Below, piece after piece: positions 10,310-18,696 of a DNA stretch of 31,826 nucleotides; the stretch's first letter is position 1; every line of letters starts with the position of its first letter. Both the position numbers and the translations under genes were made by a program. The DNA is taken from IMG/VR virus record IMGVR_UViG_3300046522_000530, positions 1 to 31,826 of that record; one strand, 5' to 3'. A model generated the notes under the pieces. The model worked only from the letters and a program-made list of their open reading frames with translations. It made no database searches and had not been told where the DNA came from. This DNA is from a virus.

Positions 10310-10978
10310 TCACTGCCAGGGCGGGCGGCCGCCGTTGGCCCACTGGACGAGTACGTCGCCGTTGATGAGGCGGATGGGCGTGGGCAGCATCGCGTTGGTG
10401 TCGACGGCGGCGCGGGTGAAGTTGGCGGTGGTGACGATGGCGGCTTCGTGGCAGTGGTGGATGTCGCGGTAGACGCCGTTGGTGGTCTGGATGGTCTCGG
10501 AGCCGACGTTGTTGCCGGGACGGTATCGCTTGCACTGCACGAGGATGCGGCGTCCGTCGTTGAGGTGGACGAGGACGTCCATGCCGCGGTCGTTGGCCTG
10601 GCCTACGGCGGTGGCTCGGGCGACGGAGGGGTCCTTCTGGGCGAGTTCGGCGATGGCGCGTTCGAAGCGGGCCGGGGTCATGCGGTGGAAGGCGTCCAGG
10701 GTGCGGCGGCCGCGGGCGGGCAGCGCGGGTCGGTAGAAGCTGAGGCCGTTGATCCTCTCGATGAGCGGGGCGAGGCGGCGGGGCCGGACGGCGCGCAGGA
10801 CGAGCAGGACGCCTATCAGAGCGAGCGTGGTGGCGGTGAGGACGGGCCAGGTCTTGGCGATGCCCATGAGAGTGATGGCGATGCCGGCCCACCACCAGCC
10901 GAGGCGGGGTAAGCGGCGCCGGTAGCGGGTTCGGGTGGGGCGCTTGGTGCGGCGGGTCGGGTTGTGGGTGGTGGCCAT
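10310..10978 (-). CDS. membrane-anchored Mrr-like restriction endonuclease
   Basis: 222 residues from ATG 10978 with GGAG upstream. A basic N-terminus precedes two membrane segments (about 26-45 and 47-63). The cytoplasmic part from about 100 is an Mrr_cat/PD-(D/E)XK domain: TPARFERAIAELAQKD helix, GQANDRGMDVLV with Asp134, then RILVQCKRY at 145-152, where Gln148 replaces the usual Glu as in other Mrr proteins and Lys150 is catalytic. Homologues occur beside plasmid transfer genes in Streptomyces. It closes the transfer cluster as its last gene. Cleavage of foreign or methylated DNA near the membrane is inferred. Confidence 0.82.
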   Translation of the reverse strand: MATTHNPTRRTKRPTRTRYRRRLPRLGWWWAGIAITLMGIAKTWPVLTATTLALIGVLLVLRAVRPRRLAPLIERINGLSFYRPALPARGRRTLDAFHRMTPARFERAIAELAQKDPSVARATAVGQANDRGMDVLVHLNDGRRILVQCKRYRPGNNVGSETIQTTNGVYRDIHHCHEAAIVTTANFTRAAVDTNAMLPTPIRLINGDVLVQWANGGRPPWQ

Positions 10979-11592: not shown

Positions 11593-13857
11593 CTAGTGGG
11601 TGGTGAGCTGGTAGACGCCGCGTTGGCCGGCGGGCTGGACGTGGCCTTCGGCGCGGAGTTCGCCCATGGCGTTGTTGACGGATCCGGCGGCGAATTCGTC
11701 GGCGAGGCGCTTGCGGACGTCTTTGAGGGCCGTGGGGCCGTCGGCGAGGACGTCGAGGATGCGGTCCTTGATGGTGCCGGTGGACGGCTGGTCGTCCTCG
11801 TCGGCGAGGGAGTCGACGATGGCCGGGTCGTAGTCGGTGGCCTCGCCTTCGTCGTCTCCGGCGAGGAGCTGCTCGGCGAAGGCCAGCCAGCGCGCGTACG
11901 ACTCCTGGAAGACGCGGTCCTCTTCGGGGGTGAGGCGCGGGATGGGGGCGGACTCCATGAGGGCGATGAGGCCGGGGTAGGTCTTGTTCTCCTTGCGGGC
12001 GAACCAGGTGCGACCGAGGAACAGGCTGCCGCTTTGGATGAGGTTGGCCATGCCCGCGGTGATGGGCCCCTTCTTCGCTTCCTTGCCGTGGAAGGCGGCG
12101 TCGATGTCGCTGCCGGATCCGACCTTGAAGTGGCGGGGGATGGGCTCGGGGTAGACGCCGGGCGGGAGGACGCCGTCGGCGGCCATGTGCTGGGTGGTGC
12201 TGGAGTTGGTGCGGCCGAGCCAGACGGTGCCGTTCTTGGCGTTGGCGCGGATACGGTCCTTGTCGCCGAGGTCGGCGAGGTGGATGGACTGGGCGGCGAA
12301 TCGGATGCCCTTGCCGAGCTTGCGGCCGGTGGCCTGGTTGTCGCCGACCAGGCCCGTGACCCACTTGCGGAACGGGCGGGGGACGGTGGCGTCGGCGGAC
12401 AGGATCCGGTTGAGTTCGTCCAGGGTGTCGTTGGCGATGCGCCACGGCTGGCCGGGTTCGAATGAGCCCCACCCGTTGGCGGCGGAGATCTTCTCCCGGT
12501 ATTTGCCGAGGTCGTTGGATGCGGCGAGGGTGGCGGCGGTGGCGGCGATGCCTTTCCCGAAGTGGTAGACGCGGCCGTCGGCCTCCGGAAGCGACATGCC
12601 GTCCTGGGCGTCCGCGACGATGCTGACGATGCCGTTGATGCGTTCGGCGGCCAGGATCGTCAGGAGGGTGACGGACTTGCCGGCGCCGGGGGCTCCGACG
12701 AACAGGTCGGTGATGGCGCCCATCTGTGGGTCGTAGAGCGGGATGCGGGAGGGCCTGCTGTCGTGGCGCAGGCCGAGGGCGATGGTGCCGTCGGCGTCCA
12801 TGGTGAGGTCTTCGACGGTGGCCTCGCGCAGGTTCATCAGGGGGTGGGTCTTGTAGAGGGAGATCAGGCCTTCGCCGAGTCCGTCGGTCTCCACCATGAG
12901 CAGGCTGGCGTCCGCGATGTCGAATGCGCGGGCGAGGAGTTTCTGGTTGAGGTTGATGAGCTGGTTGTCGGGGGCGGTGGTGCGCAGGGCGATGCGGTTG
13001 TCGTCGATGCGGTAGTCGGTGAGGACCATGCCGGGGGCTGCGCCCTTGGGGTGGGCGATCTTTTCGTCCCAGAGGCGGTGGATGGGGTCCTGCTGGGCCT
13101 GGGCGGCGGCGTCGAGGGTGGGGCGGGCCTCGAGGAGTTTGCGGCCGGGGCCGGATCCTTCGATGAGGCTGAGGGTGACGGTGCCGGGGGGCAGGTCGAA
13201 CACTCCGGCGAGTGTGGTGGGGTTGAGGTCGGGGACGGCTTCGCCCTGCGGGGCGATGACGATGCCCCAGAAGTCCCGCACGCCTTCCTGGTACTGGGTG
13301 ACGTTGGTGAGCAGGGTGGTGCCGGTGGCCTTGGCGTTGGCCCATTCCCAGGCCCGGTATTCGCCGTAGGTGGCGGGCGGTGCGGGCTGGTCGGGTGCGG
13401 TCTCGAGGGCCGGCCTGCTGGCGTCCGGGTCGGGCAGGGCGGGGAGGGCGGCGTGCAGGTTGGTGGAGTGGGTGAGCGGGGTGGTGACGGCCATGAGTAC
13501 GCCCCAGCCGACGGATGCGGCGTACTCCCACCAGGCGGTCCCGGGGGTGAGGAGGTCGGTGAGGTAGACGGCGGCGCCGGACAGGAACGGCAGGGCCCGC
13601 TGGCAGGCGTTGATCAGGCCGAGGCCGAGGGGGGCGTCTTCGATCTTTCCGTACAGCCAGTAGAAGGTGCCGCCGGCGACGCCGAGCGCGCCGAGGTGGG
13701 CGGGCCACAGGCCGGGGTGTTGGGGGGCGATGGTGATGCCGAGGGTGGCCGCTCCGTAGACGGTGCGCTCGAGGCGGGCGCGGCGGCGGATGCTGCGGGC
13801 GGGCACGTGCTTCGGGGCGCCCTGCTCGAGGGCGGGGGTGTTGTCGGTGGCGGCCAC
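11593..13857 (-). CDS. FtsK/TraB-like DNA translocase (conjugative transfer)
   Basis: 754 residues from GTG 13857 with AAGGAG. The N-terminal 130 residues hold several membrane segments (about 35-50, 55-72, 85-103, 110-126). A central domain leads to Walker A GAPGAGKS at 388-395 and a Walker B-like strand IVSIVADAQDG near 411. The C-terminal 60 residues (STGTIKDRILDVLADG to the end) look like a winged helix, comparable to the FtsK gamma or TraB DNA-recognition domain. In Streptomyces plasmids such proteins form a membrane pore and move double-stranded DNA between hyphae. Spd-like neighbours support transfer rather than chromosome segregation. Confidence 0.85.
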   Translation of the reverse strand: MAATDNTPALEQGAPKHVPARSIRRRARLERTVYGAATLGITIAPQHPGLWPAHLGALGVAGGTFYWLYGKIEDAPLGLGLINACQRALPFLSGAAVYLTDLLTPGTAWWEYAASVGWGVLMAVTTPLTHSTNLHAALPALPDPDASRPALETAPDQPAPPATYGEYRAWEWANAKATGTTLLTNVTQYQEGVRDFWGIVIAPQGEAVPDLNPTTLAGVFDLPPGTVTLSLIEGSGPGRKLLEARPTLDAAAQAQQDPIHRLWDEKIAHPKGAAPGMVLTDYRIDDNRIALRTTAPDNQLINLNQKLLARAFDIADASLLMVETDGLGEGLISLYKTHPLMNLREATVEDLTMDADGTIALGLRHDSRPSRIPLYDPQMGAITDLFVGAPGAGKSVTLLTILAAERINGIVSIVADAQDGMSLPEADGRVYHFGKGIAATAATLAASNDLGKYREKISAANGWGSFEPGQPWRIANDTLDELNRILSADATVPRPFRKWVTGLVGDNQATGRKLGKGIRFAAQSIHLADLGDKDRIRANAKNGTVWLGRTNSSTTQHMAADGVLPPGVYPEPIPRHFKVGSGSDIDAAFHGKEAKKGPITAGMANLIQSGSLFLGRTWFARKENKTYPGLIALMESAPIPRLTPEEDRVFQESYARWLAFAEQLLAGDDEGEATDYDPAIVDSLADEDDQPSTGTIKDRILDVLADGPTALKDVRKRLADEFAAGSVNNAMGELRAEGHVQPAGQRGVYQLTTH

Positions 13858-14405: not shown

Positions 14406-16730
14406 TCAGGCCTGGTTGTGGATCGGGGCGGACGGGGTGGTCAGGCCGGCGTCGGCGGTGGCGACGTTGTAGGGCCGGTAGGCGTCGTTGAGGTCGTTGT
14501 CGGCTGTTTCGGCCATCTCGGCGGCCTGGAGGCTGGAGGTCTGCATTTCCTCGGCCATGCGGGCGACGAGGTCCATGGACTCGGCCATGCGGGCCATGGC
14601 TCCGGAGAACAGGGGGCCGATCAGGTTGTGGTTGACGGCGAGGTCCTCGGCGAACGCGAGAAGGACTTCGCGGAGTTTGATGGCCCGGGCGGCGAGCTTG
14701 TGGCACTGGTCGTGGGTTTTGAACGCGTCGTCTTTGAAGTCGCCGTATTCGTCGATGGCGTCGTCGAGGGTGATTTCTGTGGCGTGCTGGGCGTCCATCT
14801 GCCGGCCCTGGGTGAGGTGGTTCGCGGTGCGGGCGGCGTCTTTGCGGGCTTGGGCGATGACCGCGTGGGTGTCACGGCTGGCTTGCGGCATGGGGATCGG
14901 CTTCCTGGGGCGGGTGGTGCCGGGGCGGGGCGGGTTGGTGGTGGTGGCTGCGTCGAGGGCTGCGGGGCCGGTCGCGGGGAGGGCGGCCTGCCCGGTGTTG
15001 ATCGCGTCCGGCTCCCACTGCTTGGCCTGCGCGCCTACGTAGTCGTCGCGTTCGACGGTGTAGGCGCCTCCTGTCGCCTGTCCGGCGGCCTGGCCTGCGT
15101 TCTCGAACGGGCTGCGGCGCTTCCGGTTTCCGCCGGGCGCACCAGCCTGTCCGTCCTGGCCGGACTGTCCGGCATTCGCACTGCCCCCGGACGCCCCCGG
15201 CGCCTGGCCGGGCCCGTGGGCGGCCTGCTGGGGGTCCGGGCCGGTGCCGCCGAAGAAGTCGCCCTTGGCGGCCTTCTTCCGTGCCCACGCCTGCGCCTTC
15301 GCCCACCGTCCGGCGTGCTGCTGGCCGCCCTGCTTGTTCTTCTTCAGGTTCGGCTTCGGCGTCTTGGGGGCCGTGTTGGTGCCGGCCGGCCCGCCGGGGG
15401 CAGCCTGCTGGGGTCCGGGCTTGTTCTTGCGGTGGCCGCGGTCCTTCCAGATCGGCGGGACGGGTCCGGTCTTGCGCTTCTTCCACCGCCGGCCGGCGGC
15501 CTTCTTCCAGTCGTGCCACAGGGCCTGGTTGAGCTTCCTGCGGTTCGCCCCGGCGGCCTGGGCCTGGATCTTGCGGGCCTTGCGGTTCTTGGCGTTCGGG
15601 GTGTTCTTGCCCGCCGGGCCCAGGCTGTTCTTCGGGCTGTTCTTCGGCGCGTTCTTCTGGTTCTTGGGGCTGTTGCCCCACAGGGCGGGGTTGTCGGGTC
15701 CGCGCTTCTGGCGCTTCTTCCAGCGGCGGGCGGCCGCCTTCTGGGTGTCCTTCTTCAGCGCGGCGCCGAGCCCGGGACCGCCCGCACCGCTGTTGCCCTT
15801 GCCGCCGCCGAGCTGCTTGCGGCGCTGCTTGTCCTGTGCGGCCTTCGATCCGCTCTGGGAGTTGCGGCGCGGGCTCTTCTTCGGCTCGAGGACGTTGCGG
15901 GGCTTCTTCTGCTTCAGACCGCCGCCCGACCCGGACCCGTTGTTGGGCCCGCGCCGGTTGCTGTTCTTCTTCGAGGAACCGCCACTGCCGCCCCCGAACA
16001 GGCCACCACCAGTCTTCGGCTTCTTCCGCCCGGCCGACGAGCCGCCGCTGCTGCCCGCTCCCCCACCGCGGCCGCGGCCACCCGAGGACTTGCCAGAACC
16101 GCCCGACCCGGAGCCGGAGCGGCCCAGCGACTTGCGGCCGAACTCCGGGCCGGACTGCACGCGCTGCTTCGCGCGCTGCTGCGCCTGCTTGCTCTGCAGG
16201 CCCTGCATGGCCAGGACGTGCTTGCCGCGCGCCTCGTCCGCGGCGAGCCGCATCTTCAGGCGGGCCTCGCGGATCTTCGCGTTCTCGGCTTCGGTGGCGA
16301 GGCGCCGCTGGCGGCGGTCGGTGAGGAAGGTGTGGGTGCCGCGCAGGGCGGCGACGGCGACGGCGAGGCAGGCTGCCAGGGACAGTGCGCCGAGGCGGGC
16401 GCCTGCGTAGCCGTCCTGATTGTCGTCGCCGTGGAAGGTGTCGGGGACGTGCCCGGCCGCCGGGGCGGGGGACGCCGCGGGTACGGGGAGGAGGGGTGCG
16501 GTCAGGCCGGGGTCGGGCAGGGCGGCGAGCGTGTCGAGGGGGCTGCGCCGTCCGCGGCGGCCCGGGCCGGCCGGGCTGGGCGTGGTGGGCGGGAAGTCGG
16601 GGCGCGGGGGGACGTCGGCGTCTGCCGCCGGCGGGGGGTCTGTGAGGGTGGTGGTGGGCGCCAGACGGAACCCGATCTGGGGGAAGTTGTAGACGCGCGC
16701 GTCGGGCTGGTCGTCGGTTTGGTCGGTCAT
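14406..16730 (-). CDS. 774-residue very basic membrane protein of the transfer cluster
   Basis: Starts at ATG 16730 after a strong AAGGAGG. Residues 1-105 are Pro-rich, one membrane helix lies at about 110-130, and a charged helix follows (RRQRRLATEAENAKIREARLK broken near 150). A long low-complexity section (about 185-500) is rich in Lys, Arg, Asn, Gly, Ser and Gln with repeated WKK and KNxKN patterns. The last 130 residues are folded and helical (DHAVIAQ-like helices, FAEDLAVNHN). The basic section could hold DNA at the membrane. Codon use matches its neighbours, so it is not a recent insert. No enzymatic motif is visible. Confidence 0.82.
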   Translation of the reverse strand: MTDQTDDQPDARVYNFPQIGFRLAPTTTLTDPPPAADADVPPRPDFPPTTPSPAGPGRRGRRSPLDTLAALPDPGLTAPLLPVPAASPAPAAGHVPDTFHGDDNQDGYAGARLGALSLAACLAVAVAALRGTHTFLTDRRQRRLATEAENAKIREARLKMRLAADEARGKHVLAMQGLQSKQAQQRAKQRVQSGPEFGRKSLGRSGSGSGGSGKSSGGRGRGGGAGSSGGSSAGRKKPKTGGGLFGGGSGGSSKKNSNRRGPNNGSGSGGGLKQKKPRNVLEPKKSPRRNSQSGSKAAQDKQRRKQLGGGKGNSGAGGPGLGAALKKDTQKAAARRWKKRQKRGPDNPALWGNSPKNQKNAPKNSPKNSLGPAGKNTPNAKNRKARKIQAQAAGANRRKLNQALWHDWKKAAGRRWKKRKTGPVPPIWKDRGHRKNKPGPQQAAPGGPAGTNTAPKTPKPNLKKNKQGGQQHAGRWAKAQAWARKKAAKGDFFGGTGPDPQQAAHGPGQAPGASGGSANAGQSGQDGQAGAPGGNRKRRSPFENAGQAAGQATGGAYTVERDDYVGAQAKQWEPDAINTGQAALPATGPAALDAATTTNPPRPGTTRPRKPIPMPQASRDTHAVIAQARKDAARTANHLTQGRQMDAQHATEITLDDAIDEYGDFKDDAFKTHDQCHKLAARAIKLREVLLAFAEDLAVNHNLIGPLFSGAMARMAESMDLVARMAEEMQTSSLQAAEMAETADNDLNDAYRPYNVATADAGLTTPSAPIHNQA

Positions 16731-17673: not shown

Positions 17674-18696
17674 TTAGAGGTAGCCGCCGTCGGTGGTGGT
17701 GCGCTGCTGCTTGGTGCGGGACAGGACGGTGCGGACGTACGCATCACTCGCATCGATTCCGTGATGCGCGAGGCGCGCCACGATCTGAGGCGCTGATGCG
17801 GTGGGGAGCGCATCGCGTACCACTCGGACTGCGGCGGCCTTGGAGAGGCCGTCGAGGTGCAGCGCCGCATCACTGGCGTGAGGCGCCACGGCGTGGGGCG
17901 CGACGGTGGGCATCTGGGGCGCATCATGGCCGCGAGCTGCGACTTCACTGACCGCATCGGTACGCGGTCCGATGCTGCGAACCGGGCTGTGGGGCGCCGG
18001 TGATGCGCCGAGGACGGTGGCCGCATCAGCGGAGTGGTGCGCATCGTCGACCTGGTGCGCATCGCCGTGATGCTGCGTGATACGCACCGCATCACCGGTG
18101 GTGAGCTCCATGGGGCGGCGGCGCATCAGTTCGCGCTGCCGGTCCTGCCGCATCAGTTCGATGTCGAAGTCGGTGGAGACTTCGGTCATAAGGAATTCGG
18201 CGCCCATCTTCTGCTGCCGCATCCGGATGCCGTGCTGCGCCTCGTCGAAGACCATGCCGCGTTCCATGCGGGCGAGGGCGTGGAGTTCGTCGTGGGTGAG
18301 GGCTGCGGGGTCGCGCATGTCGGCGAGGGCGAGGACCCAAACGGCCTTGGCACCGAAGGGGAGGAACGGTCCGGCGGCGGTCATGGCAAGGCTGTGCTTC
18401 TCGACGCCGTGCATGGCGAGGAAGGCGGCGACGACAAGGAGGGTGGCCCAGCCGAAGGCGGGGACGATGTTGCGCTGCTTCTTACCGACGGCGATTCGCA
18501 GGCCGCGGGCCTCAGCGATGATGACGGAGCCCCAGATGACGTCGGCGCCGGCGGCGACGGTGAGGGCGATGAGGCCGGTACCAAGGAGGTCGACGAGGCT
18601 CCAGGTCGTCCAGGCCAGGGAGGCCAGCGACAGGAGCGCTGCCGGGAAGAGGAGCGGCGACAGGGGCCGCTTACGGGTGGCCTGGACGGTCGTCAC
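17674..18696 (-). CDS. SpdB-like integral membrane protein with C-terminal HTH-like domain
   Basis: 340 residues from ATG 18696. Four membrane segments (about 14-30, 33-60, 78-97 and 103-126) are followed by a helical cytoplasmic part (HDELHALARMERGMVFDEAQ, then RQDRQRELMRRR). A His/Asp/Ala-rich linker (about 205-280) and a C-terminal helix-turn-helix-like segment (SAPQIVARLAHHGIDASDAY) complete it. The architecture is that of Streptomyces plasmid spread proteins (SpdB), which help transferred DNA pass across septa. The linker is unusual: its Asp-Ala pairs are all written GAT GCG although Asp is otherwise mostly GAC, see the repeat at 17740-18154. Confidence 0.8.
   Translation of the reverse strand: MTTVQATRKRPLSPLLFPAALLSLASLAWTTWSLVDLLGTGLIALTVAAGADVIWGSVIIAEARGLRIAVGKKQRNIVPAFGWATLLVVAAFLAMHGVEKHSLAMTAAGPFLPFGAKAVWVLALADMRDPAALTHDELHALARMERGMVFDEAQHGIRMRQQKMGAEFLMTEVSTDFDIELMRQDRQRELMRRRPMELTTGDAVRITQHHGDAHQVDDAHHSADAATVLGASPAPHSPVRSIGPRTDAVSEVAARGHDAPQMPTVAPHAVAPHASDAALHLDGLSKAAAVRVVRDALPTASAPQIVARLAHHGIDASDAYVRTVLSRTKQQRTTTDGGYL
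17740..18154. repeat. dense GATGCG hexamer cluster inside the SpdB-like gene
   Basis: On the minus strand GATGCG occurs at plus-strand positions 17740, 17749, 17809, 17866, 17920, 17953, 18022, 18040, 18058, 18088, 18122 and 18149. In the opposite orientation it occurs at 17763, 17795 and 18002. That is 15 in 415 bp, against about 0.2 expected for a random hexamer on both strands. Ten encode Asp-Ala. The rest fall in other reading phases (Leu-Met-Arg, Ala-His-His, Ala-Ser), so the DNA word rather than the protein seems conserved. A protein-binding locus is likely, such as a transfer (clt) or partition site. Confidence 0.8.

Follow-up and report, generated by a model that had tools for sequence, protein, structure and literature searches.

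Several systems described in plasmids and phages bear on the locus reported here. The SpdA2 protein of plasmid pIJ101 binds palindromes (sps) that lie inside its own gene, and the SpdA2/sps pair affects plasmid stability (PMC4170104). SpdB2 of pSVH1 is reported to be an integral membrane protein that binds DNA non-specifically and interacts with TraB (PMC4170104). Among phages, phi29 has an integral membrane protein, p16.7, that brings phage DNA to the membrane (PMC4974454), and the cluster A mycobacteriophages carry stoperators, many asymmetric repressor sites whose sequence changes with the reader among related phages (PMC6550527). For arrays of sites embedded in spdB genes we found no earlier report in the literature searched, which covered few subscription papers.

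The window, by which we mean the whole 31,826-bp stretch analysed, is classed as a virus record and encodes a terminase, a portal protein, and a D12-type methylase, with FtsK/TraB-like and SpdB-like genes on the minus strand; Rfam and tRNA searches of it gave no matches. Its relatives include circular plasmids of 85–93 kb (e.g. pCQ3, pCQ4, and pSAM1), several of the relatives having terminase genes, and we therefore read the window as most likely a fragment of a Streptomyces plasmid-phage. The translocase gene lies downstream of the SpdB-like gene on the same strand, a tra/spd operon setting that recurs in pCQ3, pCQ4, pSAM1, and others; in annotated relatives the SpdB-like gene sits between a GntR regulator and the translocase. 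Between translocase and terminase, positions 10310–10978 encode a protein predicted to be a restriction endonuclease of the Mrr type; it has a hydrophobic stretch at its N-terminus and is 91% identical in one relative (L005). The features that concern us are the following.

17674..18696, minus strand: SpdB-like gene, 340 aa, with an N-terminal membrane domain, long helix, disordered linker, and C-terminal helix-turn-helix (HTH) domain (open frame, homologues, hhalign, AlphaFold2)
17692..17841, minus strand: coding DNA of the C-terminal HTH (residues 286–335), the proposed word reader (AlphaFold2, structural neighbours)
17740..18154, no strand assigned: GATGCG/CGCATC array, 15 copies, consensus YGATGCGS, in linker and HTH coding DNA (word count, codon-shuffle nulls)
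17872..18102, minus strand: coding DNA of the disordered linker (residues 199–275), with many words inside (pLDDT under 50)
18218..18223, minus strand: a 16th GATGCG of this gene, lying upstream of the main array (word count)
18316..18651, minus strand: coding DNA of four predicted membrane helices (residues 16–127; AlphaFold2 at low confidence, pattern common to pIJ101 SpdB)
11593..13857, minus strand: FtsK/TraB-like translocase with a C-terminal winged helix, tested as array reader and not supported

The AlphaFold2 model of the SpdB-like protein (23 sequences, mean pLDDT 59) has predicted membrane helices at residues 16–37, 42–63, 77–95, and 104–127, all of low pLDDT, then a long helix (135–193), a disordered stretch (199–275), and a C-terminal domain of three helices (pLDDT about 86–90), which were obtained again when that domain was folded alone. 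The structural neighbours of this domain are mostly HTH proteins, all weak; no match in the fold search had E under 0.001 (the best was a Pax-6 paired domain, VIA-align Z 6.7), so these matches suggest only a common HTH arrangement. Neither the window gene nor its HTH alone was assigned to a family in Pfam and NCBIfam, where the HTH_24 cut-off was reached only by the tail of class B, one of the HTH classes described below, and a sequence search of the Protein Data Bank returned nothing meaningful. The N-terminal domain aligns with pIJ101 SpdB (hhalign probability 87.9, E 3.3e-6, 124 columns), confirming the SpdB-like label that an earlier note, made from the sequence alone, had given to the gene.

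All 15 words of the array were found at the places where that note had put them within 415 bp; 12 point one way and 3 the opposite way, and they use several reading phases. On the gene strand, 10 words stand in phase 0, all spelling Asp-Ala as GAT GCG, and 3 in phase 2, including the copy at 18218; the 3 reverse words are in phases 2, 2, and 1. They lie mainly over the coding DNA of the linker and the HTH, with no signal of helical phasing in their spacings. The 8-bp consensus YGATGCGS summarises 121 different sequence contexts in the GATGCG class.

The earlier note held that the DNA word is conserved beyond the need of the protein and looked to a codon-shuffled null as the counter-evidence; across 10,000 shuffles for each null, similar counts were never reached. 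Synonymous permutation over the whole gene gave a mean of 3.8 words and a maximum of 11, against 16 observed, and permutation inside codons 181–340 gave a mean of 6.4 and a maximum of 13, against 15; when codons were instead drawn from the first 180 codons, the mean was 1.1 and the maximum 5. Among the 14 window genes tested, the SpdB-like gene is a clear outlier (z 8.3, the next being 2.9). The large Gly/Lys-rich protein encoded at 14406–16730 has a gene with AAGAAC and GAAGAA clusters, and these look protein-driven, since codon shuffles show no excess (z -0.9). Words in the SpdB-like gene that do not encode Asp-Ala are only in modest excess (5 versus 2.06 expected, P = 0.016), so that the window alone is not decisive and homologues are needed; these settle the matter.

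We compared about 48 distinct homologues from viral contigs, genome contigs, plasmids, and whole genomes, with homologues of the gene present in about 45 Streptomyces and related elements. The N-terminal membrane half is kept, and the C-terminal halves fall into several HTH classes. In most homologues one hexamer, spread over several phases and both strands, exceeds what synonymous shuffles of the gene's own C-terminal half give: GATGCG in class A, TGAGCC in class B, GCGA[T/A/G]C in class C, and GCGAAG/GCGAAC in class D, with GTACCG and TCCGGA each the word of a single gene. When every class word was tried in each class, the matrix came out near-diagonal; because the sub-classes GAAGCG (in A) and GCGA[T/A/G]C (in C) took their names from their words, the match between word and HTH is tested independently by the main classes only. 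The word agrees with the gene's own HTH class even at about 37–40% N-domain identity (L075, L078, and L079), and the labels of HTH class and word require at least 16 changes on the N-domain tree. Weak or marginal members are L012, L039, L072, and L077r. No embedded word was found in the very distant L080r, L081r, and L082f, and no array in the distant relatives pIJ101 spdB, phage SF3 gp690, jumbo-phage genes, and a Thermobifida plasmid gene (pTH1). The pattern that the earlier note had named as evidence against its reading, homologues that conserve Asp-Ala through GAC codons and lack hexamer enrichment, was not what the comparison gave. Plasmid searches with the C-terminal domains of classes B and C by themselves gave no match. 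Two observations on single classes may be added: the word of the class D genes L013, L029, and L030, which are enriched for both GCGAAG and GCGAAC, may be GCGAA with a sixth base that is partly free; the Streptosporangium homologue (L039:9001-10230) has a class B tail and a linker insert of about 100 residues.

Within class A, word positions turn over, which further bears out conservation at the DNA level. Across 15 class A genes, words are found at 50 different positions of the alignment, with every phase and both strands in use; the window gene shares 6 of the 14 in pCQ3 and 5 of the 12 in L004. Two genes, L036 and L038, carry GAAGCG and are nested among GATGCG genes on the N-domain tree. 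At some sites their linkers have Glu-Ala for Asp-Ala, and at a conserved ASAPQ site the Ala codon has gone from GCA to GCT, turning CGCATC into CGCTTC and leaving the residue unchanged. Their HTH domains show few differences from the GATGCG type (SKAAAVR to SKAEAVR, RDA to RAA). Linker and HTH are physically joined, and part of their shared swapping is thus hitchhiking; the one-base switch and the positional turnover, as read from these alignments, argue against hitchhiking as the whole explanation.

Four other accounts of the words have to be weighed. That a repetitive, Asp-Ala-rich linker together with codon bias produces them as a side effect would suit the 10 of 15 words that encode Asp-Ala and the modest excess of the remainder, but this is very hard to believe given that the shuffle nulls are exceeded here and in most homologues, that the words use several phases and both strands, that L036/L038 switch words synonymously, and that no other gene of the window behaves alike. 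The earlier note had suggested that the array is perhaps the transfer site and that either the TraB-like protein or the HTH-like tail of SpdB itself binds it; as a clt/TRS it would be read, as in pSVH1, by the winged helix of the adjoining translocase. The SpdB tail fits best, and the translocase is rejected as array reader for its lack of covariation with the word. The transfer-site account draws on the transfer-type operon of annotated relatives and on clustered direct repeats of about 8 bp like TRS; yet the GATGCG array stands beside at least four unrelated translocase C-termini with different winged helices. Close relatives of the window translocase occur only in L004/L022 and L007; L005 has an SpdB 81% identical to that of the window and a translocase only about 25% identical, and L006 and pCQ3/pCQ4 keep GATGCG beside yet other translocase types. 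Moreover, pCQ3 and pCQ4 have a separate CTGACA repeat cluster just 3' of traB, corresponding in place to the mapped clt of pWTY27 with its TGACACC (DC1) repeats (PMC3583192), and the words of our array are in mixed orientation. An FtsK_SpoIIIE search found no match over the cut-off in 14 of 17 records, which is supporting evidence only, since the window's own translocase and some others escaped the model too and the records may be fragments. L014–L021 are among the records with no match; L015 and L020 are phage-like and have arrays of their own, L015 with primase-polymerase, helicase, terminase, portal, and protease genes and an integrase match near the record end. We thus consider a transfer-site role not borne out and highly improbable.

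Another protein of the element or host (a partition or packaging protein, a nuclease, or a methylase) might read the words, their match to the HTH class then following from linkage, as HTH and linker are adjacent and swapped together. We hold this to be improbable: no neighbouring gene tested tracks the word, pCQ3 has separate ParA/ParB genes (the ParA model matched only three larger records), and the scheme is kept in phage and plasmid-phage elements with different gene sets. The main rival is that the array serves mainly in autoregulation, or in road-blocking of transcription of the operon, by the SpdB tail. Self-regulation is common for DNA-binding proteins that have sites in their own gene. 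Road-blocking has a parallel in the mycobacteriophage stoperators, which block elongation (PMC6550527). Against it, about 15 sites lie in the coding part and not at a promoter, they are in both orientations, and the reader is a predicted membrane protein; we judge it unlikely.

Some further clusters and loci were noted along the way. The repeats 3' of traB, six CTGACA/TGTCAG copies in pCQ3 (L088:22355-22497) and pCQ4 (L028:15737-15878), are a candidate transfer site. Iteron-like clusters lie outside the SpdB-like gene in pSAM1 (L024:7678-7790), L012:1960-2104, and L023:6635-6786 and are possibly replication sites. In loci L002–L007 and L022–L029, the translocase and intervening genes differ between elements with the same array, a pattern in gene content that suggests module exchange around a conserved SpdB-like gene.

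The reading we favour, and think reasonably likely as a whole, is that a membrane-anchored SpdB-type protein uses its HTH to read an array within its own gene, docking the DNA of the element at the membrane. The homologue comparison finds the array tracking HTH class, independent of the translocase, with coordinated word switches, and this joint change of tail and word suggests a self-addressed anchor for element DNA. No 6-mer in pCQ3 forms a stronger cluster anywhere on the plasmid than GATGCG does in the SpdB-like gene, and background counts elsewhere in the loci are low. By this comparison, the protein's own tail very probably binds the words in its gene: the C-terminal HTH would recognise YGATGCGS, of which there are about 15 in its own coding DNA. 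The next step, that many array-bound molecules dock the element on the membrane, we regard as an even call; the membrane would then keep the element in place for its replication, spread, or segregation in the mycelium. Since phage-like relatives carry the array, the role should not be limited to conjugation, and since pCQ3 has its own ParA/ParB genes, the array probably does not serve there as the main partition system. With reader and array in one reading frame, recombination would swap both as one cassette, and each element would thereby keep a matched, private address. Such a self-addressed docking cassette, comprising a membrane protein, an in-frame array, and an HTH swapped as a unit, could be widespread in actinomycete phages and plasmid-phages, and private address groups may decide which elements share a cell; we give this broader proposal about the same chance of being right as of being wrong.

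If true, a coding sequence also serves its own product as an extended array of binding sites, and reader and site have changed together many times. The GATGCG and GAAGCG readers, with their few HTH differences, would be natural pairs for learning how HTH specificity changes. It would also propose a testable role for the SpdB proteins of Streptomyces plasmids, which are poorly understood, the phage-like carriers with no detected translocase suggesting a function not limited to conjugation.

The proposed docking resembles, by analogy, that of phi29 p16.7, an integral membrane protein of the phage that docks its DNA; p16.7, for its part, binds terminal protein and single strands and has no sequence-specific array. 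With stoperators the locus has in common asymmetric sites that change together with their reader among relatives; stoperators are genome-wide, while here (in pCQ3) the strongest clustering stays within a single gene. As in the clt/TRS of pSVH1 and pWTY27, short repeats stand in a cluster (15 words within 415 bp, though in both orientations) whose reader would be the HTH-type domain of a membrane protein; the word here does not follow the translocase, however, and pCQ3/pCQ4 have their separate clt-like repeats. SpdB of pIJ101, SpdB2 of pSVH1, and their relatives compare with the locus in the N-terminal membrane domain (related to that of pIJ101 SpdB), the transfer-operon setting of the plasmid-type relatives, and, for SpdB2, a reported membrane protein with DNA binding; they differ in that pIJ101 spdB lacks an embedded array, the DNA binding reported for pSVH1 SpdB2 is non-specific, and the relatives here occur also in phage-like records with no detected translocase. 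The sps site is a conserved 12-bp palindrome in 1–3 copies, whereas here there are 7–16 short, mostly non-palindromic words (YGATGCGS itself is non-palindromic), a predicted membrane protein, and a word that varies with HTH class. Still, pIJ101 SpdA2/sps is an Spd protein with repeated sites in its own coding region, as the tail and words would be here, and its sites are conserved at the DNA level and match an amino-acid motif; we take it, by analogy, as the nearest precedent for sites within the gene of the protein that binds them.
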